A stretch of 64,000 nt of DNA from Burkholderia vietnamiensis LMG 10929 (lineage in GTDB: Bacteria; Pseudomonadota; Gammaproteobacteria; Burkholderiales; Burkholderiaceae), in NCBI RefSeq assembly GCF_000959445.1, contig NZ_CP009630.1, positions 2,170,001 through 2,234,000 on the forward strand, written 5' to 3'. The stretch's first letter is position 1. Each line of letters begins with the position of its first letter. This document shows, piece after piece, positions 2,717 through 34,641 of the stretch. The notes beneath the pieces are model-generated. The model made no database searches, was not told the origin of the DNA, and was given only the letters and a program-made list of their open reading frames with translations. A program made the position numbers and the translations under genes.

Positions 2717-3565
2717 TCAGAACAGCGCGTAGCGCGCGGCGATCATCAGCATGCGCGCCTTCGGCTTGCGCAGCGGCGCGCGCGGATACGCGAAACCGCG
2801 CGCGATCGCGGCTTCCAGAATGCAGCGATACGCGCCCGACATGATGCGCGGCGCCTTCACCTGCGCGCGCGTGCAGGTGTCCATCACCGCATCGGCGGCG
2901 CGGAAGTGCGCGAGCGCGCGTTCGACGAGCGTCGCGCACACGCGCGGCAGCGCCGGGTCGCGCACGATCGTCGCGGGATCGGCGATCGCGATGCCCTCGC
3001 GCGCGAGCAGCTCGCGCGGCAGATAGCAGCGGTTGATCGCCGCGTCGTCGTCGATGTCGCGCAGGATGTTCGTCAGTTGCAACGCGCGGCCGAGATGGTG
3101 CGACAGCTCGATGCCTTCCGCTTCGGGGATCCCGAAAATCCTCACCGACAAGCGGCCGGCCGCGCTGGCGACGCGATCGCAGAACAGGTCGAGCGTCGGG
3201 TCGTCGGGCGCGCAGATATCCTCTGCGGCGTCCATCGCCATGCCGTCGATCATGGCGTGAAAGTCTTCGCGGCGCAGGTCGAACGCGCGGATCTCGCGCT
3301 CGAGCGCAACCAGATGGCGCGGCGGCTGGCCGGCGAAGCACGCGTCGATGTCCGCGCGCCAGCGGTCGAGGCCCGCGTTGCGCTCGGCGCGCGGCAGGTC
3401 GCTGTCGGCGATGTCGTCGACGGCGCGGCAGAACGCGTAGACCTGGAACATCGCGTCGCGCTGCGCGGCCGGCAGGATGCGCATCGCCAGATAGAAGGAG
3501 CTGCCCGATGTGACGGCAGCGGCGTCGGTTTCTTGTTCGTCCACGACGAGATTGGAAACGGCCAA
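2717..3565 (-). CDS. hpnD: Presqualene diphosphate synthase
   Basis: Condenses two farnesyl diphosphates to presqualene diphosphate, the first step of hopanoid-directed squalene synthesis. The 282-residue trans-isoprenyl synthase shows both aspartate-rich metal-binding motifs: DDIAD at about residues 50-54 and NILRDIDDD at about 166-174. I chose a TTG start (MAVSNLVVDEQ...) because GGAG lies 6 bp upstream; a GTG a few codons earlier is an alternative, and the much longer open frame upstream is not convincing coding sequence. First gene of hpnD-hpnE-shc. A perfect origin-type iteron lies inside this gene (see 3130-3146). Confidence 0.9.
   Translation of the reverse strand: MAVSNLVVDEQETDAAAVTSGSSFYLAMRILPAAQRDAMFQVYAFCRAVDDIADSDLPRAERNAGLDRWRADIDACFAGQPPRHLVALEREIRAFDLRREDFHAMIDGMAMDAAEDICAPDDPTLDLFCDRVASAAGRLSVRIFGIPEAEGIELSHHLGRALQLTNILRDIDDDAAINRCYLPRELLAREGIAIADPATIVRDPALPRVCATLVERALAHFRAADAVMDTCTRAQVKAPRIMSGAYRCILEAAIARGFAYPRAPLRKPKARMLMIAARYALF
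3130..3146 (+). repeat. Iteron-like 17-mer inside hpnD
   Basis: TCCCGAAAATCCTCACC matches all 15 defined positions of the origin iteron (TCCCGAAAANNCTCACC) and reads in the same direction as the origin copies, about 13.5 kb to their left. It encodes part of SVRIFGIPE in hpnD, so coding constraint may account for some of the match. Binding by RepA is inferred, not shown. Confidence 0.5.
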
Positions 3566-3816
3566 GACGAGCTCCACGGAGACACCCACGCGGGGCGATT
3601 GAAGAGGCCAGGCCCGGCTGGGTTGGTCAGGGCGTCGGATGCGTGCGAGATATGCGAACGATCGACGCAGACAGGCATAAATTACCGGCCGGAAGCCGGA
3701 ATTGGGCGAAAGTATAGCAATCTTTGAAGTTCGATGGCGGAGACTCTCCGCGCGTCGCGGGCCGCCGCGCGGGGCCTGCGCGGCGGGCGCCCGCGTGCAA
3801 TGGCATCGGGGCGGCC

Positions 3817-4149
3817 TCAGCCGTAAACGATGTCGCGCTGCAGGTCGAGCGCGATGAGGCCCATTTCCCGCGTGAGTTGCAGCATCGCGCGACGGTCGAG
3901 CCGCGAACCCATGAAGCTCGTCACGCGGCCGTCGGGCTCCGCGGTGAACTGGAACGACGACGCGCCGGTGCCGAACCACGCGCCGGGCACGTCGGGCGAT
4001 TCGTGCCAGTCGATCTCGTCGAACACGCGCGTGATGCCCGCACGCACGGCGTCTGTCGGGCCGATCGGTGGCGCGACGTCGCCGAGATCGTCGAGGGAAT
4101 AGGGGCCGGGCTTGTCCGGCTTGCGGTAGAAGAGATAGTCGACGTTCAT
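3817..4149 (-). CDS. Conserved hypothetical protein
   Basis: Encodes 110 residues (MNVDYLFYRKPDKPGPYSLD... to ...LQRDIVYG) with no signal peptide, membrane segment or catalytic motif that I recognise. The codon use is ordinary for this genome, and the product looks soluble, with a sensible mix of charged and aromatic residues, so I regard it as real. I preferred the ATG over a TTG nine codons upstream. It reads toward hpnD across a 250-bp gap, so it may not be part of the hopanoid operon. Divergent to the downstream hydrolase gene. Function unknown. Confidence 0.65.
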   Translation of the reverse strand: MNVDYLFYRKPDKPGPYSLDDLGDVAPPIGPTDAVRAGITRVFDEIDWHESPDVPGAWFGTGASSFQFTAEPDGRVTSFMGSRLDRRAMLQLTREMGLIALDLQRDIVYG

Positions 4150-4360
4150 GGGGCGCAATCGGAACGAAAGCGCCAAATTGGCGCGCTTCGTGACATATTG
4201 AAATCAGATCACTATGAAATGTGATCTGTACGACACAAAATAGCGCCATTTCGCGCGCAACGCAACGGCGGGGCGGGCGCGTGCCGCGATGTGCGTCCGC
4301 ATGCTTGCACGCGCGCCGCATCGTCTAAGATGGACACCTCTCTCGAACAAGACGAACGCC

Positions 4361-5245
4361 ATGGAGACGAACGTAACCGCCGCCCAGCAGTCCGACCATC
4401 CCGTTTTCGTGCTCGTGCACGGTGCGTGGCACGGCGCATGGTCCTATGCGCCGGTCGCGGCCGCGCTGGCCGCGCGCGGCTATCTGTCGATCGCGCGCGA
4501 CCTGCCCGCGCACGGCATCAACGCCCGCTTTCCCGCGTCGTATCTCGCACGCCCGCTCGACAAGGACGCGTTCGGCGCGGAGCCGTCGCCGGTCGCGAAC
4601 ACCACGCTCGACGACTACGCGACCCAGGTGCTGCAGGCCGTCGACGACGCGTATGCGCTCGGCCGCGGCAAGGTCGTTCTGGTCGGGCACAGCATGGGTG
4701 GCCTCGCGATCACGGCCGCCGCGGAACGCGCGCCGGAGAAGATCGCGAAGCTCGTCTATCTCGCGGCGTTCATGCCCGCCTCGGGCGTGCCCGGCCTCGA
4801 CTACGTGCGTGCGCCGGAGAACCACGGCGACATGCTCGGCGCGCTGATGCTGGCGAGCCCGCGCGTGGCCGGCGCGCTGCGGATCGATCCGCGCAGCGGC
4901 GATGCGGCCTATCGCGCGCAGTTGAAACAGGCGCTGTACGACGACGTGCCGCAAGCCGATTTCGACGCAGTCGCGAACCTGATGACCTGCGACGTGCCGG
5001 CCGCGCCGTTCGCGACCGCGATCCCGACCAGCGCCGCGCGGTGGGGCGCGATCGATCGCCATTACATCAAGTGCCTGGCCGACCGCGTGCTGCTGCCCGC
5101 GTTGCAACAACGCTTCATCGACGAAGCCGATGCGTTCGCACCCGGCAATCCGACCCACGTGCATCAGCTCGACAGCAGCCATTCGCCGTTCATGTCGCAG
5201 CCCGCCGTGCTCGCCGGCGTGCTGGCGGATATCGCGAAAAGCTGA
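4361..5245 (+). CDS. Alpha/beta-fold hydrolase (esterase-like)
   Basis: A 294-residue serine hydrolase. It shows the oxyanion region VLVHGAWHGAWSY (residues 17-29), the nucleophile elbow GHSMGG with Ser111, and a late catalytic histidine in LDSSHSPFMSQP. The pattern resembles the EstC/salicylate-esterase/methyl-ketone-esterase group of plant and bacterial hydrolases. No signal peptide, so probably cytoplasmic. Start at ATG (METNVTAAQQ). It stands alone, divergent from the 110-residue gene, and converges on the diguanylate cyclase gene 22 bp away. Substrate cannot be deduced. Confidence 0.85.
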   Translation: METNVTAAQQSDHPVFVLVHGAWHGAWSYAPVAAALAARGYLSIARDLPAHGINARFPASYLARPLDKDAFGAEPSPVANTTLDDYATQVLQAVDDAYALGRGKVVLVGHSMGGLAITAAAERAPEKIAKLVYLAAFMPASGVPGLDYVRAPENHGDMLGALMLASPRVAGALRIDPRSGDAAYRAQLKQALYDDVPQADFDAVANLMTCDVPAAPFATAIPTSAARWGAIDRHYIKCLADRVLLPALQQRFIDEADAFAPGNPTHVHQLDSSHSPFMSQPAVLAGVLADIAKS

Positions 5246-5267
5246 GCGGCGCGCAGCGCCGCCGCGC

Positions 5268-6209
5268 TCAGCCGAACGCGACCGAGCGGTCGCGTCCGAG
5301 CCGCTTCGCACGATACAGCGCGGTGTCGGCCCCGTTGACGAGCACGTCGCACGATGCAAGCCCAGGCGTCGCGTACGCGGCGCCGACGCTCGCGGTCACC
5401 GCCACGCTGACGCCTTCCGCCTCGACCGGCGTGCTGCCGATCGCGTCGCGCACCTTGTCGGCGACGAGCAGCGCCTCGTCGAGATTCGTGCAGGGCAGCA
5501 GCAGCGCGAATTCCTCGCCGCCGAAGCGGCCGAACGTGTCCTGGGCGCGCACGATCGACGCCACGCGGCGCGCGGTCTCGCGCAGCACCGCGTCGCCGAC
5601 GGCATGCCCGAAGCGGTCGTTGATCGTCTTGAAGTGATCGAGATCGAACAGCAGCACCGACAGGTCGCCGCCGTAGCGCTGCCAGCGCGCGAATTCGTCG
5701 CCGAGCCGCGCCTCGAAGTAGCGCCGGTTCGCGATGCCGGTCAGGCCGTCGACGTTCGCGTGTTCGCGCAGCTTCGCGACCGCCTCCTCGCGCTCGCGCT
5801 GCATCACGCTCACGTGCGTGACGTCCGAGATCGTCACGCACACGGCCTCGACGTCGCGGCCGCGCGTGAGCGGCATGAACGTGCAGTCCTGCTGCATGTA
5901 GTCGACGCCGCCGGTGATCGGCCGGTCGTGCTCGAAGCGAAACAGGTAGGGCCGCTGCTCCCACGAGCTGAACGCGAAGCTGCCGAGCTGGAACACGCTC
6001 TGGAGCTTGCGCTCGAGCCACGCGCGCGGCAGATCCGGAAAGCAGTCGAACAGGTTGCGGCCGATCACGTCGGCGGCCACCGTGCCGCTGTGGTCCTGCA
6101 TGAAGCGGTTCCACATCAGCACGTTCATCGCGCGATCCAGCACGAACAGGCCGAAACCGACCCGCTCGATCACGAGATCGCTCAACGACGGCGTGCCGGC
6201 GGTATTCAT
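5268..6209 (-). CDS. PAS-GGDEF diguanylate cyclase
   Basis: Makes cyclic di-GMP from two GTP. The 313 residues contain an N-terminal PAS-like sensor (about 15-130, beginning IERVGFGLFVLDRAMNVLMWN) and a GGDEF domain (about 145-310) with an intact active site GGEEF at 230-234. A product-inhibition I-site, RAQD, lies at 221-224, five residues upstream, so feedback control is likely. No transmembrane segment is apparent. Last gene of a three-gene unit with a CheC-like phosphatase, whose stop codon overlaps this start by 4 bp, and a CheY-like receiver, implying a signalling chain from receiver to c-di-GMP output. Confidence 0.92.
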   Translation of the reverse strand: MNTAGTPSLSDLVIERVGFGLFVLDRAMNVLMWNRFMQDHSGTVAADVIGRNLFDCFPDLPRAWLERKLQSVFQLGSFAFSSWEQRPYLFRFEHDRPITGGVDYMQQDCTFMPLTRGRDVEAVCVTISDVTHVSVMQREREEAVAKLREHANVDGLTGIANRRYFEARLGDEFARWQRYGGDLSVLLFDLDHFKTINDRFGHAVGDAVLRETARRVASIVRAQDTFGRFGGEEFALLLPCTNLDEALLVADKVRDAIGSTPVEAEGVSVAVTASVGAAYATPGLASCDVLVNGADTALYRAKRLGRDRSVAFG

Positions 6210-6832
6210 AGCGCGGACAGCAACGCGTCGAGCGCGTCGCCCATCAGCCGGATCGAATCCTCGGCCATCAGCATCACGAAGTGCGCGCGGAACCCGTGAT
6301 CCTCGAGGCCGAAGTTCACTTCCAGCAGCAACGCGACGCTCCATGCGAGCGCGTTCGGCTGGAATACGTCCTCGAACGACACGTTCGCGCCCAGCAGCCC
6401 GGGCGGGAAGAACACCGGCTTGCGGCCGAGTTCGTCGAGAATCGACGCGACGCACGCGCTCATCAGCACGTTGGCGACGTCGAACACGAGTTCGTCCTGC
6501 GTCGCCATGCCGGCATACACGCCGTCGCCGAACGTGCGCTCCATCAGCGACATGAGCCGCGCGACGCCGGCGGTGCGGCACAGCACGATCGCCTCGCCCT
6601 TGATGTCGGAACGGAAGCCCTGGCGTACGGCCGTCACGTTCTCGTGAATCCCCGTCATCTCGCGCAGCGCGGCGCCGGCTTCCGACGCCCCGACGACCCG
6701 CACGCGCGGGACCGACAGCTCGATGAAGTGGCCGAGCAGCAGCGCGAGCCGTGCAGCGGCACGACCCATCGCGAGGTTGGCGATTTCCTGCAACGCGTCG
6801 CGTTGCTCCGCCGTGAACACCGATTCAGGCAT
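6206..6832 (-). CDS. CheC/CheX-family phosphatase-like protein
   Basis: A 208-residue protein of the CheC family, which dephosphorylates CheY~P in chemotaxis. Two pseudo-symmetric helices are recognisable: ALQEIANLAMGRAAARLALL, carrying the E-x2-N signature (EIAN), and LVFDVANVLMSACVASIL, where the equivalent is DVAN, with Asp in place of Glu. So one site looks canonical and one conservatively altered. I chose the ATG at MPESVF, with AAGGAG 10 bp upstream; an ATG three codons earlier (MGC) sits too close to that site. Overlaps the CheY-like gene by 8 bp and the cyclase gene by 4 bp. Confidence 0.85.
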   Translation of the reverse strand: MPESVFTAEQRDALQEIANLAMGRAAARLALLLGHFIELSVPRVRVVGASEAGAALREMTGIHENVTAVRQGFRSDIKGEAIVLCRTAGVARLMSLMERTFGDGVYAGMATQDELVFDVANVLMSACVASILDELGRKPVFFPPGLLGANVSFEDVFQPNALAWSVALLLEVNFGLEDHGFRAHFVMLMAEDSIRLMGDALDALLSAL

Positions 6833-7193
6833 ACAACCCATACTCCTTGAGAATGGGCAGCAATGCCTCCGACGTCACGGGCTTGGCTACGAATGCGATC
6901 GCGCCGAGTTCGCGCACGCGGGCTCGCGCCTGCGGCTGAATATCGGCGGATACCACGATCACGAACGTGTTCAGATCTTCGTGGCGCAGTGTCTCGAGGA
7001 CCTGATAGCCAGTCATGTCGGGCATCGTCAGGTCCAGAAACATTACGGAAGCTTTGCCGTCACGATAGAGCGCCAGGGCCTCATGACCATTCGCCGCATA
7101 TGCTACGTCAACGTCCCAGTCTCCCGGCAACGCCTTGGTCAAAAGCTTGCGGGCGAGCAAGGAGTCGTCGGCGATCACGATCGGCAAAGGCAT
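6825..7193 (-). CDS. Single-domain CheY-like response regulator
   Basis: A 122-residue stand-alone receiver domain. The acidic pocket is Asp9/Asp10 (IADDS), the phospho-acceptor Asp54 (MFLDLTMPDM) and the conserved lysine Lys104 (VAKPV). There is no output domain, so it should act by protein contact, most simply with the overlapping CheC-like phosphatase or the PAS-GGDEF cyclase encoded next. First gene of the three-gene operon. A partner kinase is not next to it; the hybrid kinase on the opposite strand, 470 bp away, is a candidate only by proximity. Confidence 0.9.
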   Translation of the reverse strand: MPLPIVIADDSLLARKLLTKALPGDWDVDVAYAANGHEALALYRDGKASVMFLDLTMPDMTGYQVLETLRHEDLNTFVIVVSADIQPQARARVRELGAIAFVAKPVTSEALLPILKEYGLYA

Positions 7194-7661
7194 GGCAGCG
7201 AAGCGGTGTACGGAATGGTCTCTCTCGCGTTAACGACCGCTCGGCGCCGTTCTTGAGGCGCCGTGCAATCAAACGCTGGCACCGCCTTGCAATCGCACGC
7301 GGGCGGCGCGGCACGAAGCACGCGACACACCGCGCCGCAATCGCCGGCGGGCGCATGTATCTGTCATAGGGAAAGCAAGGGGCGATTCTCGGAGTAAACC
7401 GGAGGCGGTGCAACTCGCCATTTTCACCATTTCGAACAGAATCGGTCCGATCTCCGCGCGTTGTCGAAACAGGCTCGATCATTTTCGAGATAAGCACGCA
7501 AAATTTTTCCTTGTGTACGTTTGCGCTGCCGGATTCATAGCGTTTTCATTCTTTCAATGCAGCCCTGTCGGATTCGACAGGTTTGCGGGTGCGTCCGGGC
7601 GAGACGGTGGGCGTGCACAACTCGTTTATGATGGGGCACTCCAGCCTCGTCGCCCTGTTCA
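7194..7661. other. Divergent intergenic region
   Basis: No convincing gene. It must hold divergent promoters for the CheY-like operon and the hybrid kinase. A perfect 7-bp inverted repeat, CCTGTCG-GATT-CGACAGG at 7564-7581, lies about 80 bp before the kinase start and could be an operator or a leader hairpin. Confidence 0.5.
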
Positions 7662-13955: not shown

Positions 13956-15017
13956 ATGAAACCCTCCCAATTTGCAAAGGGCTTCCAGGCGCGCCCGGAC
14001 ATCACGACGAGCGAGAAGCGCACGGCGCTTGATCGACTGAATGCCATCGACGGTATCGTCAAGTCCGAGACGGCTACGCCGGCTGCAACGAAATCCGCTC
14101 GAAAAGAGACGCAGCAGGCTGCGGCTCCCGAGTTCCTGCTCGACGCGTCGACCGACGAGTCGCCGCAATATCGCGCTTGGCGCCTCGAGCACCGCTATGC
14201 GCCCGGCCAAGTGATCGAACTGCCGCTGAAGGCAATCAAACATAGTCCGTTCAACCCGCGACATTTCTATTTGAAGTCGTCGATCGCCGAACTCGCAGTG
14301 AACCTCGCGAAGCAGGGTCAGCAGCAGGCGATTCACGTGATCCCCGACTACGACAATCCGGGCTCGTATTTCGTCAGCGACGGCGGCCGCCGCGTGCGCG
14401 CGCTGAAGGAGGCGAACAAGGAATCGGTCAAGGCGATCGTGATCGACGTGCCTATCGGGATCCAGAGCTACAAGCTCGGCTACGATCTGAACGTGCAGCG
14501 CGATTCGCAGACGGTGTTCGACAATGCCGTCGTGTGGCGACGCTTCCTCGACGACAAACATTTCCAGAGCCAGAAGGAACTGTCCGAACATCTCGGCCTC
14601 GATGAATCGACGGTCGCGGTTGCGCTGTCGATCGGCAAACTGCCGGAGTCGGTCATGCAGGAAATGGTCGCGCGTCCGGATCGCTTCGGCTCGAACATGG
14701 CGTATCAGGTCGGCCGCTATCACAATGCACGCGGCACCGAGGCGACGCTACGGCTGATCAACAAGATCGTGTCCGACGATCTCAGCACGCGTCAGGTATC
14801 GGACATCGTCAAAGGTCGCGTCGCGGCGCAGGAAACGCCGAAGCCGGCGGGCCGCCAGCGCTATGCGCAGCGCTTAGAGATCAAGCTCGGCGGCAAATCG
14901 GTGGGCGACCTCAAATCGTACGGCGACGATCGCATCGAACTGCGCCTGCGCGGCCTGCCGAAGGAGAAGCGCGACGCTATCCTCGAGCAACTCGAGCGGA
15001 TGCTGTTGTCGGATTGA
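13956..15017 (+). CDS. parB: Chromosome partition protein ParB
   Basis: A 353-residue centromere-binding CTPase. N-terminal linker (to about 70), ParB/Sulfiredoxin-like CTPase domain with HSPFNPRHFY and the GGRRVRA motif (equivalent to GERRxRA) near residues 145-151, central helix-turn-helix (QKELSEHLGLDESTVAVALSIGKLP) and a C-terminal dimerisation segment. It should load at the TTTATGCGCATAAA palindromes around it. It reads toward repA, with 95 bp between the two stop codons. Assignment is secure; replicon specificity is inferred from the sites. Confidence 0.95.
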   Translation: MKPSQFAKGFQARPDITTSEKRTALDRLNAIDGIVKSETATPAATKSARKETQQAAAPEFLLDASTDESPQYRAWRLEHRYAPGQVIELPLKAIKHSPFNPRHFYLKSSIAELAVNLAKQGQQQAIHVIPDYDNPGSYFVSDGGRRVRALKEANKESVKAIVIDVPIGIQSYKLGYDLNVQRDSQTVFDNAVVWRRFLDDKHFQSQKELSEHLGLDESTVAVALSIGKLPESVMQEMVARPDRFGSNMAYQVGRYHNARGTEATLRLINKIVSDDLSTRQVSDIVKGRVAAQETPKPAGRQRYAQRLEIKLGGKSVGDLKSYGDDRIELRLRGLPKEKRDAILEQLERMLLSD

Positions 15018-15112: not shown

Positions 15113-16477
15113 TCAGGCGGCCCGCGATTGATTCAGGGTAAAGGACAGCAGGTCGCCGTCCGTCGGCTCGCCCCAGGTCTTCTGGGCCAGCCAGTCGAAA
15201 AACGCCGTCTCGGCCAGCTTGGAATCGAGGCCGCGCTTGCGCCAGTCGTCACGCAGGTGCGAGCCCATCGTCGGCAACACTTCCGCCTCGAACGACTCAC
15301 GCGCCACTTCGCGCTCCGCGTCGCCCTGCTCCTCGTACAGCACCTTCGCTTCCTTGCGGCGGAACGCGGCGAATTCGCTCAGCAGGCGGGCCTTCAGATC
15401 GTCGGGCTGCGCACTAACGGCCTTCATGGACGGCGTGCCGGCCGGTAGCGTGTCGACCGACTCGACCGGCGGCGCATACCCCTTCTTCAACGCGTCCTTG
15501 AACAAGGCCGGCGCACTGCGCACCGGCGGCAGCGTCGTGCTGCGCATCCGCTGCTCGGTCATCTGCAGCGCCGCGCGAATCCGGTTTTCCTCGCTGTCGG
15601 CGTAGAGCGTCTGCGCTTCCTTGAGCGGGATGCCGAGCTTCACCATACGGTCGACCAGCGTGCTGTCGAACACGTTCGGATGCTCGTCGAGCGCGAGCAT
15701 CGGCTGCTTGCGCTCGGTCACACGGAACTGGATCTCGGCAACTCGCCGGCCTTCGCGATGCTCGATCAGCTCGACGAAGATGTTGGTGACCGCATTGACT
15801 TCGGCGATCGCCGGACGCAGATAGTCGCGCTTGAAATACTTGTACTCGCGCTTCGCCTCGTCGCCGGCTTCCGTGTCCGGCGTGCCGGACAGGATCGGGC
15901 GCCACCACTCCCACGGCTCGCGCATCGTCAGGTGGCTCGGGTTCGTCAGGTAGCGTACGCAGATTTCATACAGCGCCAGGCCGGCGCTGCTGCGCAACTG
16001 GCTCTGAAACTGCAGGCTCAGACGCGCGTACTGCACCGGATCCAGCAGCTTCTTCTTGATCTTCGGCGCGAACGAGAACTCGACCCATACGCGGCGCGTC
16101 GACGGATCCTCGAGGATTTCCGCATCGGCGATCAGCGTCGAGATCCCCCACTTGCGGCCGGGCTTCTGGCTCGACGTGCCGGTGCTCCACTCGACCTGGA
16201 CCGACACCATGCGACGCAGGTGTTCCTTCACCAGGGCGGTGTCGTTCGAGTCGAAGGCGGAATTGGCGACGATGTCCGACAACAGCGCGCGATAGGTATC
16301 GCCCGAGTCGTCGGCCTGCTGCGCGACGGCGAGCAGTACATTGAACAGCTTGCGGGTCAGGAGGGTGATCTTGCCGCTCTTCGGCTGAATCGCGATCGCC
16401 TCGACGGCCTTCCGCAATTCGGCTGAACTGGCACTCACCACATCCACATCGGTCTTCTTGGCGCGCTTCGTGGCCAT
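15113..16477 (-). CDS. repA: Replication initiator RepA (Rep_3 winged-helix family)
   Basis: A 454-residue initiator of the plasmid Rep_3 type. The conserved winged-helix domain is at about residues 35-260 (KLFNVLLAVAQQ..., VEWSTGTSSQKPGRKWGISTLI, SSAGLALYEICVRY, FKRDYLRPAIAEVNAVTN), followed by a long C-terminal extension of about 190 residues with no match I recognise. It should bind the iterons just upstream of its own gene, starting replication and probably repressing itself: the two nearest iterons lie 120 and 234 bp before the ATG. I see no good Shine-Dalgarno sequence before the ATG, so expression may be weak. Confidence 0.93.
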   Translation of the reverse strand: MATKRAKKTDVDVVSASSAELRKAVEAIAIQPKSGKITLLTRKLFNVLLAVAQQADDSGDTYRALLSDIVANSAFDSNDTALVKEHLRRMVSVQVEWSTGTSSQKPGRKWGISTLIADAEILEDPSTRRVWVEFSFAPKIKKKLLDPVQYARLSLQFQSQLRSSAGLALYEICVRYLTNPSHLTMREPWEWWRPILSGTPDTEAGDEAKREYKYFKRDYLRPAIAEVNAVTNIFVELIEHREGRRVAEIQFRVTERKQPMLALDEHPNVFDSTLVDRMVKLGIPLKEAQTLYADSEENRIRAALQMTEQRMRSTTLPPVRSAPALFKDALKKGYAPPVESVDTLPAGTPSMKAVSAQPDDLKARLLSEFAAFRRKEAKVLYEEQGDAEREVARESFEAEVLPTMGSHLRDDWRKRGLDSKLAETAFFDWLAQKTWGEPTDGDLLSFTLNQSRAA

Positions 16478-16597: not shown

Positions 16598-17883
16598 TCC
16601 CGAAAACTCTCACCAGTCCGGATTTACGGCGTTTCGGGCCAATCCAGATGTGTCGCGGGATGCGGCAATTTCACAGATTTTCACCTGTGCCGGACGCGTG
16701 CGCAACTTGCTCCCGTATCGGCTCACCTTTCGATTTGTCGTAATTTTACGACTCAGCGGGACCCGTGCCTCACCGGGACGTCAGCGGATGCTTCTGTGGA
16801 TCCTGTATGCATGTACAGCGACGCAAACCGCACCCGCGAAGTCCGTCCGACGTAACGGCGATACCAGCCGAGGACCGCTCCCACAAGCCTGCCGAGATCG
16901 TTTCGCAACCGCGGGCGCGCATTGTACAGCGCCTGGAAACCGGATGTTCCCGAAAACGCTCACCTTATGGACTCCACAGACTGTGCGCGAGGAGCCGGGG
17001 CATCCCCGACACATCTAGGCTCAGGTATTCGCTCCTCCCGAAAACGCTCACCTTTTCGACGAATTCGACGTCGGAACTGCCACCAACGTCACTCCCGAAA
17101 AACCTCACCGTAACCGTCGCAGTATCAAAAATGTCAATCGCGCCCGGTACTTACGAGATCCTCTGGCTCACAAGTTCGGCGACACACCCTCCCGCAAAAC
17201 CTCACCTGTAGCACCTATGAATCGGCACGGTGCCCCGATGGCCGCTCCCGAAAAATCTCACCTTTGCCAAAAAGAGGCACAGCAAAAAACCGATTTTCGC
17301 CGCCTCCCGTGGGCTTTCCGGCGAATCAAGACCCTCCTGGGTCCCGAAAAAGCTCACCTCTGATGCCTTTTTGTGCAACTGACACTCCTGAAAAGGCTCA
17401 CCTTTGAAGTGCTCCTCCGGCCTGTGACTCGTCCCCCGAAAAACCTCACCTCAACGGAATCCCGCCCGGAAACCCCGCACTTCGCTCCCGAAAAGACTCA
17501 CCTTTCCCCGGCCACAGGCGCTCGAGCGCACTTTTTCTGTGCAAAAACACCGTAGACTCCCGAAAAACCTCACAGTAAAAACCTGTGACGTCCCGTGAAA
17601 CCTCACCTTTTGTCGGAATTGCCTAAAAGATGGGCAAAAACAGGGCGGGAAACGGAACCCGCAAGTTCTCACCCATCGCTGCACAGGCAGACAACTGTGT
17701 ATGCAGGCGCCATGAGGGTTCTGGGGATGCGAGCTCCCGAAAAGCCTCACCTTGGCCAAATTTAATGTTTTACTGTGATCCCGAATCCGCTCACGACCTT
17801 TCCCGCATCGGCTCACGCAGCTCCCCGAACCCCATCACTTCAGCTCCCGCAGAAGATCACCTTGGCTCCCGTAAAACTTCACC
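16598..17883 (+). repeat. Iteron array, 17-bp unit TCCCGAAAANNCTCACC
   Basis: All copies read in the same direction. Starts (each 17 bp): 16598, 16711, 16948, 17036, 17093, 17190, 17246, 17342, 17386, 17434, 17486, 17558, 17591, 17735, 17779, 17801, 17823, 17845, 17867. Most keep TCCCG and CTCACC; positions 6-9 are usually AAAA and 10-11 vary. The copies at 16711, 17591 and 17779 onward are more divergent. Spacing is irregular up to 17735 (several intervals are 44 or 88 bp, multiples of 22), then exactly 22 bp. Binding by RepA is inferred. Confidence 0.9.
17779..17883 (+). repeat. Phased iteron core, five units at 22-bp period
   Basis: Units begin at 17779, 17801, 17823, 17845 and 17867, so they share one face of the helix (about two turns apart), and another lies 44 bp before. 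They are more degenerate than the irregular copies upstream (for example CCCCGAACCCCATCACT at 17823). This phased block abuts the AT-rich segment and looks like the essential initiation array, while the stronger irregular copies may be regulatory. Confidence 0.75.
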
Positions 17884-17919
17884 TTGTCGCCTCGAAAGCC
17901 TTGCTGCATAAGAATCTGC

Positions 17920-18001
17920 GGTGGCGTTAACGTTTTTAACTAAGGGTTCAAGGGTGTTTACTTCTAATACTCTCAAGACTCAGCTCACCGAGTTTTCCAC
18001 A
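17920..18001. other. Candidate DNA-unwinding element with DnaA-box-like site
   Basis: AT-rich sequence (including GTTAACGTTTTTAACTAA around 17926-17943 and TTTACTTCTAATACTC) follows the phased iterons, ending in TTTTCCACA (17993-18001), which differs at one position from the DnaA consensus TTATCCACA. Order and composition suggest the opening site of the origin. Confidence 0.55.
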
Positions 18002-18277: not shown

Positions 18278-19459
18278 ATGACGCTGGATGAAATACGTGA
18301 AGCTATCCGACGAGAGCTGGAATCGCTGCGCGCAAGCGGTGCACGGCGCCAGGAACTCTCGCTACACGCGTGCAAGCGCTTGTTCTTCGATCTTGGTATT
18401 CGGCCGTCGGCCGCGAACGTTCGCGACCTGACGCAAACCGGCAGCGCGAGCGACATCCCGAAGGACATCGACCATTTCTGGGAACGGATTCGCGCCGCGT
18501 CGAAGATCAAGCTCGACGGCGCAGCGATTCCCAAAGCAGTCGAAGAGAAAGCCGGGGCTTTGCTCTCAGCGCTCTATGACGAGGCGCTGAAGGCAGCGAA
18601 GGAGAGTCTCGATGGCGATCGCGAGCAGATCCGCTCGAGCATGGTCGACGCGGAACAAAGGTTACGCGACGCCGCCGTCCGCCAGGAGACGCTAGAAGCC
18701 GCACTGGCACGCAGCGAAAACCGCAACGATCAGTTGCAGGCGCGCCTGACCGAACTGGAAGTACAGCTGGCGTCGCAGTCGACGCACGGCTCGGCGAACG
18801 AAGCCACGCTCCTCGCCACCATCGCACGGCTCGAAAAAGAACTGGCCGCGACGACGGGCCGAGTCGATGCCGAGCAGACGCAAAACGCTGCGCTGCGCGA
18901 CCGAATCGACGCGCTGCAAGCCGAGTTGCAGCAACGCACCGAGCATTACGCGCAGCAAATCAAGGATGCGGTAGCCGAAGCCGAACGCCGGGTCAAACCG
19001 ATGCTGGTGGAGCTGGACTCGCTACGCAGCATGGCGTCGACCTATCAGAGCGGCTTGCGCGATGTGCAGCGCAAGGAGTTCGATTTCCTCCAGCAGCTGA
19101 GCGCGGCGAAGGCGCGCGCCGATCGCCTCGAGGAACAGTTACGCAGCCAGAGCGACGAGCTCGAGCGCGCAACGCGTGACGCGAACACGTTACGCGCGAG
19201 CCGCGGGATGAGCCCCGAGATTTCGGCGCTGATGCGGCGTCTGGCTGATGCGGGTCAACTGGACGCCGACGCGTTTTCCGCAATTGGGACGTCGCTGGAT
19301 CACGAGGTGCCTGTACCGAGCCGGTGCCCGCGTTGCGATGGCGAGCCGGAGTTGTCGCATGGCGACAACGGGTTCGAAGTGTCGTGCCCCGAATGCGACC
19401 ATGCATCGGGATTCTGGCCATCCCGTTTCGAAGCCGCTACGCGGTTTGCACGCGACTGA
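18278..19459 (+). CDS. KfrA-like DNA-binding coiled-coil protein with C-terminal zinc ribbon
   Basis: A 393-residue protein. The first 90 or so residues (MTLDEIREAIRRELESLRASG... DIDHFWERIR) match the KfrA N-terminal DNA-binding type found in plasmid replication/partition regions. Residues about 95-310 are a long alanine/glutamate/glutamine-rich coiled coil. The end carries two CxxC pairs (CPRC and CPEC, 22 residues apart), a zinc-ribbon-like module that plasmid KfrA proteins do not normally have, to my knowledge. KfrA proteins are autorepressors that form filaments and stabilise plasmids. Its place beside the origin suggests a role in maintenance or nucleoid attachment of the replicon. Confidence 0.8.
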   Translation: MTLDEIREAIRRELESLRASGARRQELSLHACKRLFFDLGIRPSAANVRDLTQTGSASDIPKDIDHFWERIRAASKIKLDGAAIPKAVEEKAGALLSALYDEALKAAKESLDGDREQIRSSMVDAEQRLRDAAVRQETLEAALARSENRNDQLQARLTELEVQLASQSTHGSANEATLLATIARLEKELAATTGRVDAEQTQNAALRDRIDALQAELQQRTEHYAQQIKDAVAEAERRVKPMLVELDSLRSMASTYQSGLRDVQRKEFDFLQQLSAAKARADRLEEQLRSQSDELERATRDANTLRASRGMSPEISALMRRLADAGQLDADAFSAIGTSLDHEVPVPSRCPRCDGEPELSHGDNGFEVSCPECDHASGFWPSRFEAATRFARD

Positions 19460-19488: not shown

Positions 19489-19529
19489 GGTGAGGTAATT
19501 CGGGATCATCAAGGTGAGATTATTCGGGA
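19489..19529 (-). repeat. Extra-origin iteron pair (inverted)
   Basis: GGTGAGGTAATTCGGGA (19489-19505) and GGTGAGATTATTCGGGA (19513-19529), 24 bp apart, are reverse complements of the origin unit. They lie between the kfrA-like gene stop and the terminator hairpin, about 1.6 kb right of the last origin iteron. Confidence 0.7.
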
Positions 19530-19599: not shown

Positions 19600-20613
19600 T
19601 CAGTGAGTTTCGTCCCGATCCGCCTCATCACCGTTGAGGAGTTCCTCTCGCCAGTTCTTCCACGCACGGTGCAGCCGGTTCGATGAAATGGGCCGCACGA
19701 AGCCGAGCCATTTGCCGACACGTTCCGGCGGTACATCGTGCTCGAACAGCTCCGCGGCATACGTGTTGCGGAGCGTCTGCGGACTCGCGCGCGCAGTGCG
19801 CGACGATGCGAGGCCCGCTGATTCCACGATCGCGTCGATCGCACGCAACATCGTCGCCTTGTGCATCGGTCGCCCGGCGTGTGATGCGGGGAACACGAGA
19901 TCGCCGGCGATGTTTTGGTGCTTGCGCTCGACGAGCCAGGCTTCGAGCAGCGCGATCGCAAATGACGCGAGGTGGGTTTCACGTGCGAAATCCGGATGCG
20001 TCGACGGGATGTGCAGCGATGTCCCACTCGTGTTTATGCAACTAATAGTAAGAACCCGTGCTTCGCCGGTTTTCACGCCGGCGCCGAGAAACGCAGCGAC
20101 GAGCGCGCGGTCGCGACGTTCCTTCCAGTACGCGGAGCCCGACACGCCGATGGGCGAAAACAGGTAGGCCAGCAACTTCGCGCGTTCGGCTGGCGTCAGG
20201 AAACCGGTCGGCTCGTTGTCGCGCGCGTGGCGCCACGTCGCTTCGCCATCCTGAGCGATGAAGCGGGCCGGGTTGGTCGAGGCCAGTTCGGTTTGCCGGA
20301 TGTGATCGAGCACGCGTTCGATCAACCGCAAATAGCGCATGCGCTGCGTTTTTCGGATCGGTAGTTCGCCGACGAAATTTGCAATCGACGCGGTATCGAC
20401 GGTGGCGAGGTTTTTCTGATTGGCGCGCAGCCAGGCCAGAAAGGCCCCCCATTGTGCGCGATAGACGTCGGCCGATGAGCGGCGGTATTCCTGCATGGCA
20501 AGCCACGCGTCGAATGCGGTGTCGGGCGAGACGATCCAGTCGGATGCGCCGCGGTCGAACAAGTCCTTTTCCTCAGGGCGTGCCGGGGTGTCGGGGCATG
20601 TGGGGAGAGACAT
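19600..20613 (-). CDS. Tyrosine-recombinase-like protein with degenerate active site
   Basis: A 337-residue protein with the layout of XerC/D integrases: SAM-like core-binding domain (about 40-130) and a catalytic-fold domain (about 145-325) with LTPAERAKLLAYLF and LRNTYAAELFEHDVPPERVGKWLGF. Yet the HxLR box reads PQTLR (His to Pro), LGH reads LGF, and the nucleophilic tyrosine position reads RLHRAW (His). So strand cleavage seems impossible by the usual chemistry. Start ATG with GGAA 8 bp upstream. It converges on the kfrA-like gene near the origin. It may be a DNA-binding relic or a structural/accessory protein of replicon maintenance; it is not an active mobile-element integrase. Confidence 0.75.
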   Translation of the reverse strand: MSLPTCPDTPARPEEKDLFDRGASDWIVSPDTAFDAWLAMQEYRRSSADVYRAQWGAFLAWLRANQKNLATVDTASIANFVGELPIRKTQRMRYLRLIERVLDHIRQTELASTNPARFIAQDGEATWRHARDNEPTGFLTPAERAKLLAYLFSPIGVSGSAYWKERRDRALVAAFLGAGVKTGEARVLTISCINTSGTSLHIPSTHPDFARETHLASFAIALLEAWLVERKHQNIAGDLVFPASHAGRPMHKATMLRAIDAIVESAGLASSRTARASPQTLRNTYAAELFEHDVPPERVGKWLGFVRPISSNRLHRAWKNWREELLNGDEADRDETH

Positions 20614-24325: not shown

Positions 24326-24342
24326 GGTGAGGATATTCGGGA
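24326..24342 (-). repeat. Extra-origin iteron (single)
   Basis: GGTGAGGATATTCGGGA, the reverse complement form of the origin unit, in the intergenic region after tdh. GGTGAG and TTCGGGA are intact; the AAAA tract reads as ATAT/AATA-like. No partner within 30 bp. Confidence 0.65.
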
Positions 24343-27483: not shown

Positions 27484-27601
27484 GCAAGTCTCCTTTACTG
27501 ATGAGGGGCGCCCGCGGCGTGCGCAGCGGGACATGCGGCCATTCTATTTATTTCCATTCAGATTAAAATCGCTCGAAAGGTTAATCCACTTTCCACGAAT
27601 C

Positions 27602-28525: not shown

Positions 28526-28536
28526 AATCGGCGAAA

Positions 28537-28553
28537 GGTGAGCTTTTACGGGG
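28537..28553 (-). repeat. Extra-origin iteron (single)
   Basis: GGTGAGCTTTTACGGGG, reverse complement form with two departures from TTTTCGGGA (TTTTACGGGG). It begins 12 bp after the LysR stop codon, in the 216-bp convergent gap before argC; otherwise no feature is seen there. Confidence 0.6.
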
Positions 28554-28741
28554 GCATGAGTGCCATCGGCGAATCATGCTCGCCTGCCGACTTGCCACCA
28601 CGTACAGGTGCGACGGCCTGCGGCGGGCGCCGACGCGCGATCAGCGGCGAAGCACCCTGCAGGCTGACGATTGTGCCTGCCCTCAACCCAACGCCGAAGG
28701 CTCAAGCGCAGGACACCGGGTTCAAAGCCCAAACCTAAAGC

Positions 28742-29689: not shown

Positions 29690-29807
29690 GATCGTCGTGT
29701 TCCGCGTTTCGGGCATCGGGAAAGCCGTATCGTCCACTGAACGCCTAGAATTGGAAAAGTTGAATTTTCTGACCACAGGATTCAGAGTTCCTGAACGAGA
29801 GGTGGGA

Positions 29808-30692
29808 ATGCGGGAGATCAGTCTGGACCGGCTGCGCACGCTCGTCGCGATTGCCGACCAGGGTTCCTTCGTCGCCGCTGCGCAACTGCTGCATCTTGCG
29901 CCGCCGACGGTCAGCCTTCATGTCGCCGAACTGGAAAGCAGGATCGGCGCGCCATTGCTGTCGCGCACGCGCGGCAACGTGCGGCCGTCGGCCATCGGCG
30001 CGGTGCTGGTCGAGCGAGCGCGCCGCCTGCTGGCCGACGTCGAAGCGACGCTCGACGACGTTGAGCGGCAAGTGCAGGGGCTGACCGGGCGCGTGCGGCT
30101 CGGCGCATCGACCGGCGCGATCGCGCATCTGTTGCCGCAGGCGGTGGCGCGGCTGCGCGAGCACCATCCGGACATCGACGTGCAGATCGCCGTGCTCACG
30201 TCGCAAGACACGCTCGCGCGTCTTGCGCAGGGCACGCTCGACGTCGGGCTCGTCGCGTTGCCGCAGCCGGCGGTCGCGGGGTTGTCGATTCGCGCGTGGC
30301 GGCGCGATCCGGTGCTCGCGTTTCTGCCCGCCGACTGGCAAGCGCCGGCGCGGGCGACGCCGGCGTATCTGGCCGCGCGTCCGTTGATTCTCAACGATGC
30401 GACCACACGCTTGTCGCGGCTCACGACGGAATGGTTCGCGCTCGGCGGCCACCGGCCCGAGCCGCGCATCGAACTGAACTACAACGATGCGATCAAGAGT
30501 TTGGTCGCCGCGGGTTACGGCGCGACGCTGTTGCCGCACGAGGCCGGCGCGCCGCTGCCCGATGCGCGTATCGTCATGCGGCCGCTACGCCCGGCGTTGC
30601 GGCGCGAGCTCGGGATCGCCCATCGTGCCGGCCCGGTCGAGCGGTCGACGCAGCACGTGCTCGACGCGTTGTGGGCGCTCGGCGCGCGATAG
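29808..30692 (+). CDS. LysR-type transcriptional regulator
   Basis: A 294-residue LysR protein with helix-turn-helix at about 5-62 ([39 protein letters not shown]) and an effector domain at about 90-290. ATG start at MREISLDRL with GGTGGGA upstream. Divergent from argC, which suggests arginine-pathway control, but the C-domain does not tell which effector it binds. Confidence 0.87.
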
Positions 30693-30756
30693 CAAGTCGC
30701 GGGGGGTAAGCCTCCACTCGAAAGCAACGCATCGAGAGCGCCGCCGTGGCCGGCCA

Positions 30757-31221
30757 TTACAGCCGATGCTCCTTCGCGAGCATCAGCACACGCGCCCAGC
30801 GCTGCGCATCGCGCCGGTCCATCATCGGCAACTTCCACTCGCTTCGCACTCCGTCGCGCACGCGCACGAGCAGATACCAGCGGCCGTCGCTCGGCTCGGC
30901 GTCGCAGCCGTCGAGCTGCGACAGCGTATAGCGGCCGTCCGCGCCGTCGTGCGACAGCCACAGCAGCCCTTGCGTCGCGGACACGCGCAATTCGCCCCAT
31001 CCGCGCTGTTCGATATGGGTCCAGCCCGGCTCCCGCGTATTCGGTGCGATGTCGCGACGGCGCTTGAGCCACCACGCAATCAGCGCGATCACGGCGACGG
31101 CGGCGAGCACCGCGGCCGCGATCGCGACCGGCTGGCCGAACTGTGCGGCGATCACGTGAAACAGATGAACGGCCCCCCATCCGAGGGCGATGAGCGCAAA
31201 CAGCGCAAGAAAAATCGGCAT
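30757..31221 (-). CDS. Membrane protein with cytosolic C-terminal domain
   Basis: A 154-residue protein with two predicted membrane helices (residues about 3-25 and 32-50, VAIAAAVLAAVAVIALIAWWL), a basic stretch KRRRD and a soluble domain of about 100 residues (WTHIEQRGWGELRVSATQGLLWLSHDG... LVRVRDGVRSEWKLPMMDRRDAQRWARVLML). The soluble part contains a repeated W/L pattern but no motif I recognise. It follows the patatin gene in the same direction (57-bp gap) and so is probably its operon partner. Function unknown. Confidence 0.75.
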   Translation of the reverse strand: MPIFLALFALIALGWGAVHLFHVIAAQFGQPVAIAAAVLAAVAVIALIAWWLKRRRDIAPNTREPGWTHIEQRGWGELRVSATQGLLWLSHDGADGRYTLSQLDGCDAEPSDGRWYLLVRVRDGVRSEWKLPMMDRRDAQRWARVLMLAKEHRL

Positions 31222-31278
31222 GTCGAATCGGAAATGAGAACGGGCCGGCGCAGCGCGCGCGGCCCGTTGCAGACGGCA

Positions 31279-32496
31279 TCACCGGTGGCGGTGAATGTCG
31301 TGCGTGACGAAGCCTGCGTCGTTGACGGGCAGCGCGAGGCCGTCCTTGACCGCGAGCGTCTTGCGGATGTCGTCGAGACCCGCGGACCAGTGGTCGCGCA
31401 TCGTCGACAGACCGAACTGGTAGTCCTTGTAGTGATGCTCGTAAGCCTTCTGCTGATAGATCAGATGTTGAACGTTGTACTTCTTGCCGCTCGACATCGC
31501 TTCGGCTTCGACGCACCACGGATCGTTCTTGCGCTGCGCTTCGGGCACCTGTTCGAGCACGTGCCGCAGCACGTTGCGAAAGCGCTGTTCGCGTTGCAGC
31601 GTATCGGTGACCAAACGCGTGCGGCTCGAATACTGCACGTCCTTCGTGCGTTCCGCGACGTCGGCCATCGTGCGCGGCAGCGGCCCGCGAGCGCTCCACA
31701 GATCGACCTGGAACGCGAGCGTGTCGCGGCGCGGATGCGCGCGCAGCACCTCCATCAGCGGCGTGTTCGACACGATGCCGCCGTCCCAGTAGTACTCGCC
31801 GTCGATCTCGACCGGCGGGAACGCCGGCGGCAATGCGCCGGACGCCATGAAGTGCTCGGGCTCGAGCCGGATGCGCGCGTTGTCGAAGTACACGAAGTTG
31901 CCGGTGCCGACGTTGACCGCGCCGACCGACACGCGCGTCTCGCCCGAGTTGATCCGGTCGAAGTCGCACAGCTTGAGCAGCGTCGCGCGCAGCGCGGACG
32001 TGTCGTACCAGCTGATCTTCTCCGGATGATCGGACACGCCGGGCAGCGGCGGCGGAAAGCGCGGCACGAAGAAGCCCTGCTGGCCCTGCATCATCGCGCT
32101 GGCGGCCTGCGATGCAGTGAAGAACGTGCGGATCTGGTCGATGCTGTTGAACAGCGCGAATTCGAATGCGGCCGGCATCGCGGGAAAGTACGCGGGCTGG
32201 CAGATCGTCTCCCAGAATTCGCGCAGCCGTTCGACGCGATGTTCGGGCGCGTTGCCCGCGATCAGCGCGGTATTGAGTGCGCCGATCGAGATGCCGGCGA
32301 TCCAGTCGAGCGGAATGCCGGCCTCGTGCAGCCCTTCGAATACGCCGGCCTGGTAAGCGCCGAGCGCGCCGCCGCCCTGCAGGACGAGCGCGATCGTTTC
32401 GTATGGCAGCGACCGCGCCGTTGCCGGTGCACCGGCCTCGTGTCGCAGGTCCGTCGCATCGACGGCCTGCTTTTCTGTACGCGCGTGCGGTTTCAT
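31279..32496 (-). CDS. Patatin-like phospholipase with DUF3734-type C-terminus
   Basis: A 405-residue lipid acyl hydrolase. The oxyanion motif GGGALGAYQAG (41-51), nucleophile Ser70 in GISIG and DGG with Asp238 form the patatin Ser-Asp dyad. The extra C-terminal region (about 250-400) resembles the DUF3734 extension. No signal peptide is evident. Third gene of adc-hbdH-patatin-membrane protein, so it may act in polyhydroxybutyrate or membrane lipid turnover. The substrate is not shown by sequence. Confidence 0.88.
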   Translation of the reverse strand: MKPHARTEKQAVDATDLRHEAGAPATARSLPYETIALVLQGGGALGAYQAGVFEGLHEAGIPLDWIAGISIGALNTALIAGNAPEHRVERLREFWETICQPAYFPAMPAAFEFALFNSIDQIRTFFTASQAASAMMQGQQGFFVPRFPPPLPGVSDHPEKISWYDTSALRATLLKLCDFDRINSGETRVSVGAVNVGTGNFVYFDNARIRLEPEHFMASGALPPAFPPVEIDGEYYWDGGIVSNTPLMEVLRAHPRRDTLAFQVDLWSARGPLPRTMADVAERTKDVQYSSRTRLVTDTLQREQRFRNVLRHVLEQVPEAQRKNDPWCVEAEAMSSGKKYNVQHLIYQQKAYEHHYKDYQFGLSTMRDHWSAGLDDIRKTLAVKDGLALPVNDAGFVTHDIHRHR

Positions 32497-32626
32497 CAGT
32501 TGCTCCGGGAAATCCGCCGTCGACGGCGGGGATGAACGGAGCGACGTCGACCGACGCGCTCCGTTGCGAGAATAAGCCGTGGTTCGCGATGCGCCTCCGT
32601 TCCGGAGGCGCGCAAGGCGCGCGACG

Positions 32627-33412
32627 TTATTGCATGAACCAGCCGTGGCTGACGACGAACGACTGGCCGGTGAGCGCGGCGCTCGGGAACGCCGACAGGA
32701 ACAGCACCGTCTGCGCGACGTCCTGCACCGTCGTGAACACGCCGTCCACCGTGTTGCCGAGCATCACCTTCTTCACCACTTCTTCCTCGCTGATGCCGAG
32801 CTCCTTCGCCTGCTCCGGAATCTGCTTGTCGACCAGCGGCGTGCGCACGAAGCCCGGACACACCACATGCGAGCGCACGTTGTGCTTCGCGCCTTCCTTG
32901 GCCAGCACGCGCGCGAGCCCCAGCAGCCCATGCTTGGCCGTCACGTACGCCGACTTCAGCGGCGACGCCTCGTGCGAGTGCACCGAGCCCATGTAGATGA
33001 CGACGCCGCCGCGATCGTCCTTGTACATGTGCTTGAGCGCAGCCTTGGTCGTGAGGAACGCGCCGTCGACGTGAATCGCCTGCATCTTCTTCCAGTCGGC
33101 GAACGAGTAGTTCTCGATCGGGTTGACGATCTGGATGCCCGCGTTCGACACCAGGATGTCGACCGAGCCGAACGTCTCGGCGACCTTGTCGATGCCGCTG
33201 TTCACCGCGTCCTCGCTGGTGACGTCCATCGCGACGCCGATCGCCTTGCCGCCGGCCTTGTTGATCTCGTCGGCCACCGCGTTCGCGCCGTCCTGGTTCA
33301 GGTCGGCGATCGCGACGGCCGCGCCGGCCTTCGCCAGCTCCAGCGCGATTTCCTTGCCGATGCCGCTCGCGGCGCCCGTGACGACTGCGGTCTTGCCATT
33401 CAGGTTGCTCAT
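32627..33412 (-). CDS. bdhA: 3-hydroxybutyrate dehydrogenase
   Basis: Short-chain dehydrogenase of 261 residues that interconverts 3-hydroxybutyrate and acetoacetate. TGAASGIG (12-19), NAG (90-92), Ser143, Tyr156 and Lys160 (YVTAK) make up the classical catalytic set; [14 protein letters not shown] and the C-terminal [10 protein letters not shown] are typical of PHB-degradation enzymes. It follows adc in the same direction (53-bp gap), linking acetoacetate to acetone formation or PHB turnover. Confidence 0.94.
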
Positions 33413-33465
33413 TTCGAATTTCCCGTGGTGAAGGATGGACAGGGGAGGCCCCTGGGACGTGCTGG

Positions 33466-34206
33466 TTACTGAGCCAGATAATCGTAGACGACTTCGCCGA
33501 GCCCGAGCGTCAGATCGGCGACGATGTGACGAGCCTCGACGATCTCGAGCACCGGCAGGTCGGCCACCGGCGCCAGCGCGTGCGGCGCCAGCTCGAGCGA
33601 CGCGGGGCCGGTCCACGCGCCTTTCATCTTGATGTCCTGCAGGTAGTAGCGCACCAGTTCGCACACGCGCGCGGAGCCGTCGACGTGCGGGATGATCTTC
33701 AGCAGGAAGTTCGGGCCGGCGAGACGCTTCATCTGCTCGTCGAGGTCGAGTTCCTTGTGCTTGTAGCCCATCGTGCCGGTCGCGACGCGCACCTTGCCGT
33801 AGTCGAGCGTGCCCAGGATGTGATCGGTGTTCACGTGCAGCGTCGGCGACGCGAGTTTCTTCGGAAAGCCCCACAGTTCGCGGCCGCCGGCGATCGGCGG
33901 ATGATCGTCGAGATACATCGCGAGCGTGTAGCCGCCGGCCTGCCCGTTGTATTCGACCGGAATCACCTGGCCGCTTTCGGTGTAGTCGCCGAAGCCGGTC
34001 GAATCGGCCATGCGGATGAATTCGTAATGCACGAGCGGCTCGGCAATCTGTAGCGGCTCCGGGACGACCGCGCGCAAGCGCTCGGGATCGGTGCGGTACG
34101 TGATGATCACGAACTCACGGTCGACGAAACGATACGGGCCCATCGGAAAGGCCGGGCTGGTCAACGGCATCGCAAACGCTTTGGATCGGACATCGCTGGG
34201 CTTCAT
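33466..34206 (-). CDS. adc: Acetoacetate decarboxylase
   Basis: Decarboxylates acetoacetate to acetone and CO2 through a Schiff base. The 246-residue protein has the active-site segment [12 protein letters not shown] with the Schiff-base lysine at about 116 and its neighbour 117, whose proximity lowers its pKa, plus [13 protein letters not shown] and the conserved acidic region. ATG start with AAGGAG 7 bp upstream. First gene of the adc-hbdH-patatin operon. Confidence 0.95.
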
Positions 34207-34641
34207 GCGGACTCCTTGTTGTCGAGCGCTACGTGGATGAGTGGGCCTAATCGTATGCCTGTGCGTTGCCGTTGTGCGATGCCGCATCGGGAATTAATTG
34301 TTGCCGATTTCGGATCCGTTGCGGCGTAAATGTTGAGATGAGTGAGTTGAACCACGGCGATCGCCCGCGATGGCCGCATTTCCGGGGCACGCAGCGATGC
34401 CGCGATATGAAAAAGGTGAGTATTTACGGGAAGGTAGGTGAGCCTTCGCGGGCGAAGGCGGCGCGGGAATATGTCAATTGTGTGAACTCTGGCTGCGGTG
34501 CACGTTCTAAGTGCGTTCGCGCGCGGGCCGCTTCGGCTGCCGTCGCCGCGCGTTAACGATCACTTAAGCGAGTGAGCACTAGCATCGTTCGCATCCGACC
34601 GGCGCGCCGGTCTCCCCATCGGCCCACACCTGACCGGATTC
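34207..34641. other. Intergenic region containing the outermost iteron pair
   Basis: About 435 bp between the divergent adc and PAP2 genes. No gene is supported. It includes the last of the extra-origin iteron pairs (34415-34453) and AT-rich patches that probably carry the two promoters. Confidence 0.6.
34415..34453 (-). repeat. Extra-origin iteron pair at 22-bp spacing
   Basis: GGTGAGTATTTACGGGA (34415-34431) and GGTGAGCCTTCGCGGGC (34437-34453) start exactly 22 bp apart, the same period as the phased origin core. The second is degenerate. This is the farthest copy found, 16.5 kb from the last origin iteron. Confidence 0.65.

Follow-up and report, generated by a model that had tools for sequence, protein, structure and literature searches.

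Conserved copies of the chromosome 2 iteron outside ori2 in Burkholderia and their likely role in external control of initiation

The chromosome 2 origin (ori2) of Burkholderia vietnamiensis LMG 10929 lies in a stretch of 64,000 nucleotides, the window analysed here (C2:2170001-2234000; the genome, 6.93 Mb in all, comprises the contigs C1 of 0.10, C2 of 2.26, C3 of 3.32 and C4 of 1.25 Mb). Copies of the origin's repeat unit, or iteron, are dispersed on both sides of ori2, and a remote array of about ten further units lies beyond the window. These sites show a regular period, are concentrated near ori2, mostly point toward it and stand as conserved islands in diverging DNA. We regard it as probable that the dispersed copies are selectively maintained, most likely as an external negative-control system of ori2 bound by the initiator RepA2. 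The scattered set, array included, probably helps to keep chromosome 2 from over-initiating.

Two patterns were used to locate iterons (positions without a contig prefix are those of the window). One was an exact core of 12 letters, TCCCGNANNNNCTCACC, picked by eye, with no mismatches allowed and the reversed pattern as control; the other comprised the 15 fixed letters of the unit described in an earlier note on this DNA, with at most two mismatches. The longer pattern matched 21 times in the window, seven of the matches lying outside the origin block, against an expectation of 0.10 (standard deviation 0.30), and 21 was reached in 0/100 shuffles. Genome-wide, the exact core gave 28 matches versus two for the reversed control. 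The nine copies named by the earlier note were all present, each at its position and on its strand. That set is real but incomplete: a group at C2:25377, 25678 and 25700 (plus strand) and the array at C2:28618-28865 (minus strand) lie beyond the window.

Eight of the nine copies lie on the right arm, on the minus strand and in gaps between genes (mismatches are to the 15 fixed letters). E1 (19489..19505, two mismatches) and E2 (19513..19529, one mismatch) occupy the convergent gap between an integrase gene and the kfrA-like gene that precedes this first external pair (18278..19459, plus strand; Pfam KfrA_N 3.4e-19). Site D (24326..24342, one mismatch) is found 94 bp past an alcohol dehydrogenase gene, between two same-strand genes. 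The paired sites C1 (26144..26160, three mismatches) and C2 (26171..26187, no mismatches) share the convergent gap between DUF1348 and Iso_dh genes, and B (28537..28553, two mismatches, the core's first letter differing here) lies in the convergent gap between LysR and semialdehyde dehydrogenase genes. A1 (34415..34431, one mismatch) and A2 (34437..34453, three mismatches) sit in the divergent gap between ADC and PAP2 genes; A2, which the earlier note had listed as one of a pair, is degenerate in this genome, and among the matches listed an exact core partner 22 bp from A1 is present in 7/9 relatives. The starts of two genes neighbouring the near sites are approximate. The reported spacings of 24, 27 and 22 bp within the E, C and A pairs were confirmed, as was the unrelatedness of the neighbours: the flanking genes differ in function and offer no obvious gene-level reason for the sites. 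The ninth copy, F (3130..3146, plus strand, no mismatches), is not intergenic: it lies on the left arm within a squalene/phytoene synthase coding sequence whose gene is on the minus strand.

The earlier note had set beforehand, as grounds for giving up its proposal, an equal density on all replicons and a lack of conservation in related strains. Density proved unequal, as described below, and the sites survive in gaps across the genus. Most site cores remain conserved within gaps that otherwise diverge: in the alignment footprint, conservation of the core against the rest of the gap was 0.98/0.52 for E (31 relatives), 0.97/0.44 for sites C1 and C2 jointly (11 relatives), 1.00/0.24 for B (8 relatives), 0.91/0.66 for A (9 relatives) and 1.00/0.63 for C2:25377-25861 (17 relatives, selected by pattern match). 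No other gap offset scored as high for E, C, B, A1 or two of the three sites of the C2:25377 group; for the third, one other offset equalled its score. Counting only gaps with both flanks aligned, at least one site was present in 13/13 gaps for the C1 entry and in 11/11 for C2, A1 was present in 9/9, and B was present in 8/8 at up to one mismatch (exact in 1/8). The E gap held at least one site, again with at most one mismatch, in 32/32 Burkholderia and 40/40 outgroup loci (72 of 80 repA loci), where outgroup denotes, by list position, loci L073-L120 minus L100, a few of whose records bear the name Burkholderia; a close pair at the same threshold occurred at 47/80 repA loci and was spaced 24 bp in 44 of those 47. 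Genome records in these comparisons may overlap in species. Selection at the same loci, a property by which an external initiator-titration locus is recognised, is thus a feature of the set, more weakly so for D and A2.

At site F, the codons themselves are informative. The core of F was kept in 13/13 relatives, and in 14/14 genomes the 262 codons compared include a single AGG, which lies in F. AGG accounts for 14 of 447 arginine codons across the 14 genomes, one per genome and always within iteron F. Selection acting on F at the level of DNA is the simplest explanation.

The C2:25377 group, near an H-NS gene, lies before an acetyltransferase/acyl-CoA-ligase-like gene, and the array follows that gene in a convergent gap. 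The array is separated from ori2 by 104 kb in its own genome, across the contig ends, and by 130-239 kb in the nine relatives measured. In 18 genomes it comprised 10-14 units, with 174/197 steps of exactly 23 bp. Because 17 of these 18 genomes had been chosen on the strength of a pattern match, the same gap was then viewed in 12 more Burkholderia genomes, three of which had yielded only one or two matches to the tandem pattern. Eight of the 12 carried 10-12 units, and B. dolosa carried six at steps of 46/46/68/46/46 bp. Together, the gap carries iterons in 30/30 Burkholderia genome records and at least 10 units in 26/30 (the 10 units of G116 are a manual count of listed sites, its longest scripted run being five). 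No array sites were found in the non-Burkholderia genome G142, though only a small part of the query aligned there. The array is located on the parAB side of ori2 in the first five relatives listed and on the kfrA side in the LMG 10929 genome, which appears inverted around ori2 relative to its relatives, an assembly error being an alternative. With a GC content of 0.63-0.68, the array is unlike a melting origin; this GC richness and the change in sign of the skew across the repA block disfavour a second origin at this position.

The earlier note knew of no description of such copies in Burkholderia, which needs some correction. Du et al. 2016 (PMC4948915) mention, in the legend of their S1 Table, scattered copies of the c2 iteron and a second cluster, placed in B. 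cenocepacia J2315 at 140 kb from the c2 origin. Judged by distance (140 kb against the 130-239 kb of the nine relatives), this cluster is very probably the same remote array. The sentence in that legend comes without sequence, neighbours, conservation, function, near pairs or the coding-sequence site. Searches of open-licence papers gave this legend as the sole prior notice of the sites, and their listings showed no functional work on them.

The right-arm copies lie on the minus strand and the left-arm copy on the plus strand, as the earlier note had observed. A more accurate description is that sites face the origin from either arm, with C2:25377, 25678 and 25700 excepted. On the right arm beyond position 19600, the exact core occurred four times on the minus strand and never on the plus strand; 400 letter-shuffled patterns averaged 0.005 per strand there. 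Because the shuffled patterns showed no strand preference, composition does not explain the bias, and GC skew was rejected as its cause on the same ground and because the skew is small (-0.019 left, +0.017 right).

The replicon that these sites surround has the features of an iteron-controlled (Rep_3) secondary chromosome: a Rep_3 initiator, a direct-repeat block and an adjoining par gene. The initiator gene repA2 (15113..16477, minus strand, 454 amino acids; Pfam Rep3_N 3.4e-12, Rep3_C 7.6e-10) has close relatives with 88-99% identity in Burkholderia and neighbouring genera, and adjoins parB (13956..15017, plus strand; Pfam ParB_N 1.4e-07). Upstream of repA2, motif scans delimited the origin block (16598..17883, plus strand), with about 20 units on one strand throughout, degenerate ones included. 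Since their consensus is in accord with the iteron that Du et al. 2016 (PMC4948915) print for c2 of B. cenocepacia, ctCCCGAAAAacCTCACCTtt (legend of S2 Fig), and the c3 iteron given in that paper differs (tCCCATAAacggntACCtnt), the window motif is the known chromosome 2 iteron; it is not a palindrome. Five degenerate units (17779..17883, plus strand; starts at 17779, 17801, 17823, 17845 and 17867) bear out the 22-bp origin phase proposed earlier. Together with the AT-rich stretch beside them (A+T 0.57 at 17901-18000), they form the probable replicator core.

Exact core matches are concentrated on this replicon, with 23 of the 28 on contig C2, one on C1, two on C3 and two on C4. The 23 span C2:2173130 to C2:28842 across the contig ends, or 117.8 kb if the contig is circular, and the rest of C2 contains no exact core match and five matches with two mismatches to the longer pattern. 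In the complete genome G010, 30/34 matches fall on chromosome 2, 29 of them within about 150 kb of ori2; in the two-contig genome G126 all 24 do, the farthest lying about 460 kb from repA2. Origin-type motifs outside the origin and enriched near it are what characterises a titration locus, and because of this enrichment the external sites are replicated early. Loci L200-L203 come from small genomes (1.1-1.2 Mb; RepA at 79-83%) whose second contig measures 61-72 kb. The origin iterons are retained there, and exact matches to the core fall within the origin block or, in G103, at both contig ends.

Complete lists of matches were available for G002, G004, G006, G014, G009, G010, G020, G021, eight further genomes and LMG 10929. 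Twenty off-origin contexts from G002, G004, G006 and G014 (leaving out three G014:C79 matches) resolved into 12 that belong to three cross-genome groups and eight that remained ungrouped, two of which are mutual repeats within G004. The copied flanks and variable positions of mobile or repetitive extragenic palindromic (REP)-type repeats were not seen, as the flanks differ and the motif stays.

A timing site on chromosome 1 of the Vibrio crtS type, also suggested by the earlier note, was not supported. Presumed chromosome 1 carries two matches in LMG 10929, one in G010, none in G126 and four in G116 (on G116:C3), and no conserved chromosome-1 iteron was found when one such match was followed across genomes with the iteron motif only. 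Three candidates were rejected. C3:2702916 lies between two open reading frames (ORFs) and is not conserved, since 8/11 genomes partly match its surroundings and none spans the site. A chromosome-1 sequence, TCCCGGAAACGCTCACC, shared by G010 and G014 in homologous DNA and inside an ORF in G010, was put down to coding chance. The group beside MscS-type and sulfate-permease genes (loci L144, L146, L150, L157 and L194-L197; the LMG 10929 genome matches only the first 1.1 kb of the stretch) maps to C2:752632 in the complete G010.

From their sequence, the external sites are predicted to bind RepA and, by doing so, to act negatively on initiation; their pairing and the 23-bp period suggest that binding may be cooperative. 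Soon after ori2 fires, replication forks would double first the near sites, at a distance of about 2-18 kb, and next the remote array, at 104-239 kb in the genomes measured. With their number doubled, the sites would sequester RepA, or be bridged by RepA to the origin iterons (handcuffing), or both, and ori2, held back in this manner, would remain restrained until more RepA is made. Among the functions floated in the earlier note, titration or handcuffing is the best supported, with a precedent in V. cholerae. Three relatives with RepA at 38-41% identity have origin iterons of an altered form, CCCTG/CCCCG...CTCACC, which recurs in their external copies, a comparison of three genomes made with no shuffle control. 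One of the three, G059 (RepA 39%), has a block of about 12 sites roughly 5 kb from repA, on the opposite side to the origin block (L207 831-1321).

Several observations weigh against external control of ori2 by the whole set. A2 fails the footprint test, with 77/337 offsets scoring as high, and D fails the MAFFT footprint (14/231 offsets); in a scan anchored left, on the upstream gene, D was found in 24/31 Burkholderia and 1/45 outgroup loci, being absent from 7/31 of the former. In B. multivorans, TSV86 and G126, a single pair is all that the array gap holds. At 11/11 Caballeronia-type loci (L076, L081, L082, L090, L099, L101, L104 and L116-L119), where the array-flanking genes lie about 4 kb from repA2, no site with at most one mismatch was found in or between the flanking gene pair; five matches with two mismatches occur in four of these loci, one in the gap itself (L119). 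None of 18 outgroup genomes has more than two tandem pairs, and 7/18 have any. Given this absence at Caballeronia-type loci and the scarcity of tandem pairs in the outgroups, the array is not required by every chromosome of the replicon family. A conserved single iteron by the MscS-type channel and sulfate permease genes lies on chromosome 2 as far as 1.27 Mb from ori2 (G010), and two further conserved groups, probably on chromosome 3, are unexplained by the model.

One of these two groups is a pair 33-34 bp apart in G002, G004, G006, G009, G010 and G014, with a mismatch in one unit in some genomes. The second group consists of one site, at C4:3665 in LMG 10929 and also in G002, G004, G006 and G014, which stands alone in an otherwise diverged gap; in LMG 10929, given a circular C4, its distance from repA3 is about 18.6 kb. 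The loci concerned are L036 (around 3665 of C4), L182, L193, L147, L153, L156 and L141; assignment to chromosome 3 draws on the complete G010:C3 (1.18 Mb) and on C4 of LMG 10929, which has a second Rep_3 gene, the replicons of drafts being unassigned. Chromosome 3 bears different iterons of its own, yet probably carries RepA2-type sites. Contig C1, of 0.1 Mb and with its own Rep_3 gene, has an iteron-like pair (L037 10465/10498) 33 bp apart, like the chromosome-3 pair. A tentative possibility is that the sites of the chromosome-2 initiator serve as a ruler across the whole genome and tie chromosome 2 to chromosome 3, in which case replication of chromosome 3 would shift free RepA2 and so couple the replicons.

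The sites might instead organise the ori2 domain, with RepA or a partner bridging near sites, array and origin into loops, or pausing forks on one arm. That most near sites face the origin on both arms, with composition no explanation, fits such a role, as does the J2315 second cluster, which lies anticlockwise of the origin in the account of Du et al. 2016 (PMC4948915). However, the C2:25377/25678/25700 group and the far G010 site face the other way, a symmetric barrier would require sites at like distance on both arms, and Du et al. give other causes for asymmetry (PMC4948915); we hold a domain-organising role to be unlikely. We think it rather less probable still that the sites are operators through which RepA2 or another regulator controls neighbouring genes. 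While A1 and A2 lie in a divergent gap, and an acetyltransferase-like ORF has its first ATG about 145 bp downstream of C2:25678/25700, the E, C and B sites and the array occupy convergent gaps, F is inside a gene and the functions of the neighbours are unrelated.

Neutral descent would make the copies fossils, left over from an ancestral control region that was longer and that rearrangements have dispersed. Such an origin is suggested by the array-flanking genes, which in genomes of the Caballeronia type are located about 4 kb from repA2, and by the apparent inversion around ori2 in LMG 10929. Neutral copies would decay along with their gaps, whereas most cores score 0.91-1.00 against 0.24-0.66 for the gaps and the codons of F are frozen, which makes this history very improbable. 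Although the single matches on C1 and C3 are few enough for background, chance matches or a mobile repeat have next to no probability as an account of the set, given 21 matches found against 0.10 expected in the window, their orthologous positions and orientation, and flanks that differ around a motif that stays.

External negative control of ori2 has a close parallel in V. cholerae, where external RctB sites bound RctB and lowered the copy number of an ori2 plasmid (Baek and Chattoraj 2014, PMC3937223); there they were shown to titrate the initiator and are likened to E. coli datA. As with those sites, the initiator motifs described here are separate from the origin but share its secondary chromosome and lie close to it, so that they are replicated early. 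In contrast, the initiator here is RepA of the Rep_3 family, and its binding is predicted from sequence, whereas binding was demonstrated in Vibrio (PMC3937223). The Burkholderia set also differs in its 23-bp phased array of about 12 units, in its additional inverted pairs, and in occupying fixed loci across the genus and partly in neighbouring genera. Among plasmids, P1 incA is a control array, and it and the incC array of F lie within a few kb of their origins. F incC is such a control array as well (PMC11711613). The proposed arrangement resembles both in having a second iteron block, apart from the origin block, that would restrain initiation by bridging, but the block here is about 100-240 kb from the origin; that of G059, about 5 kb from repA, is closer to the plasmid layout. 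Vibrio crtS lies on chromosome 1 and is described in PMC6090056 as having no homology with known RctB sites. Like crtS, the sites would act remotely on a secondary origin, but in limited tests no conserved chromosome-1 iteron was found here.

The array is compact and could be removed without touching a recognised gene, so that the role of the set is directly testable. If the proposed function is true, Vibrio would no longer be the sole lineage whose secondary chromosomes have a layer of control through external initiator sites, Burkholderia being the second.

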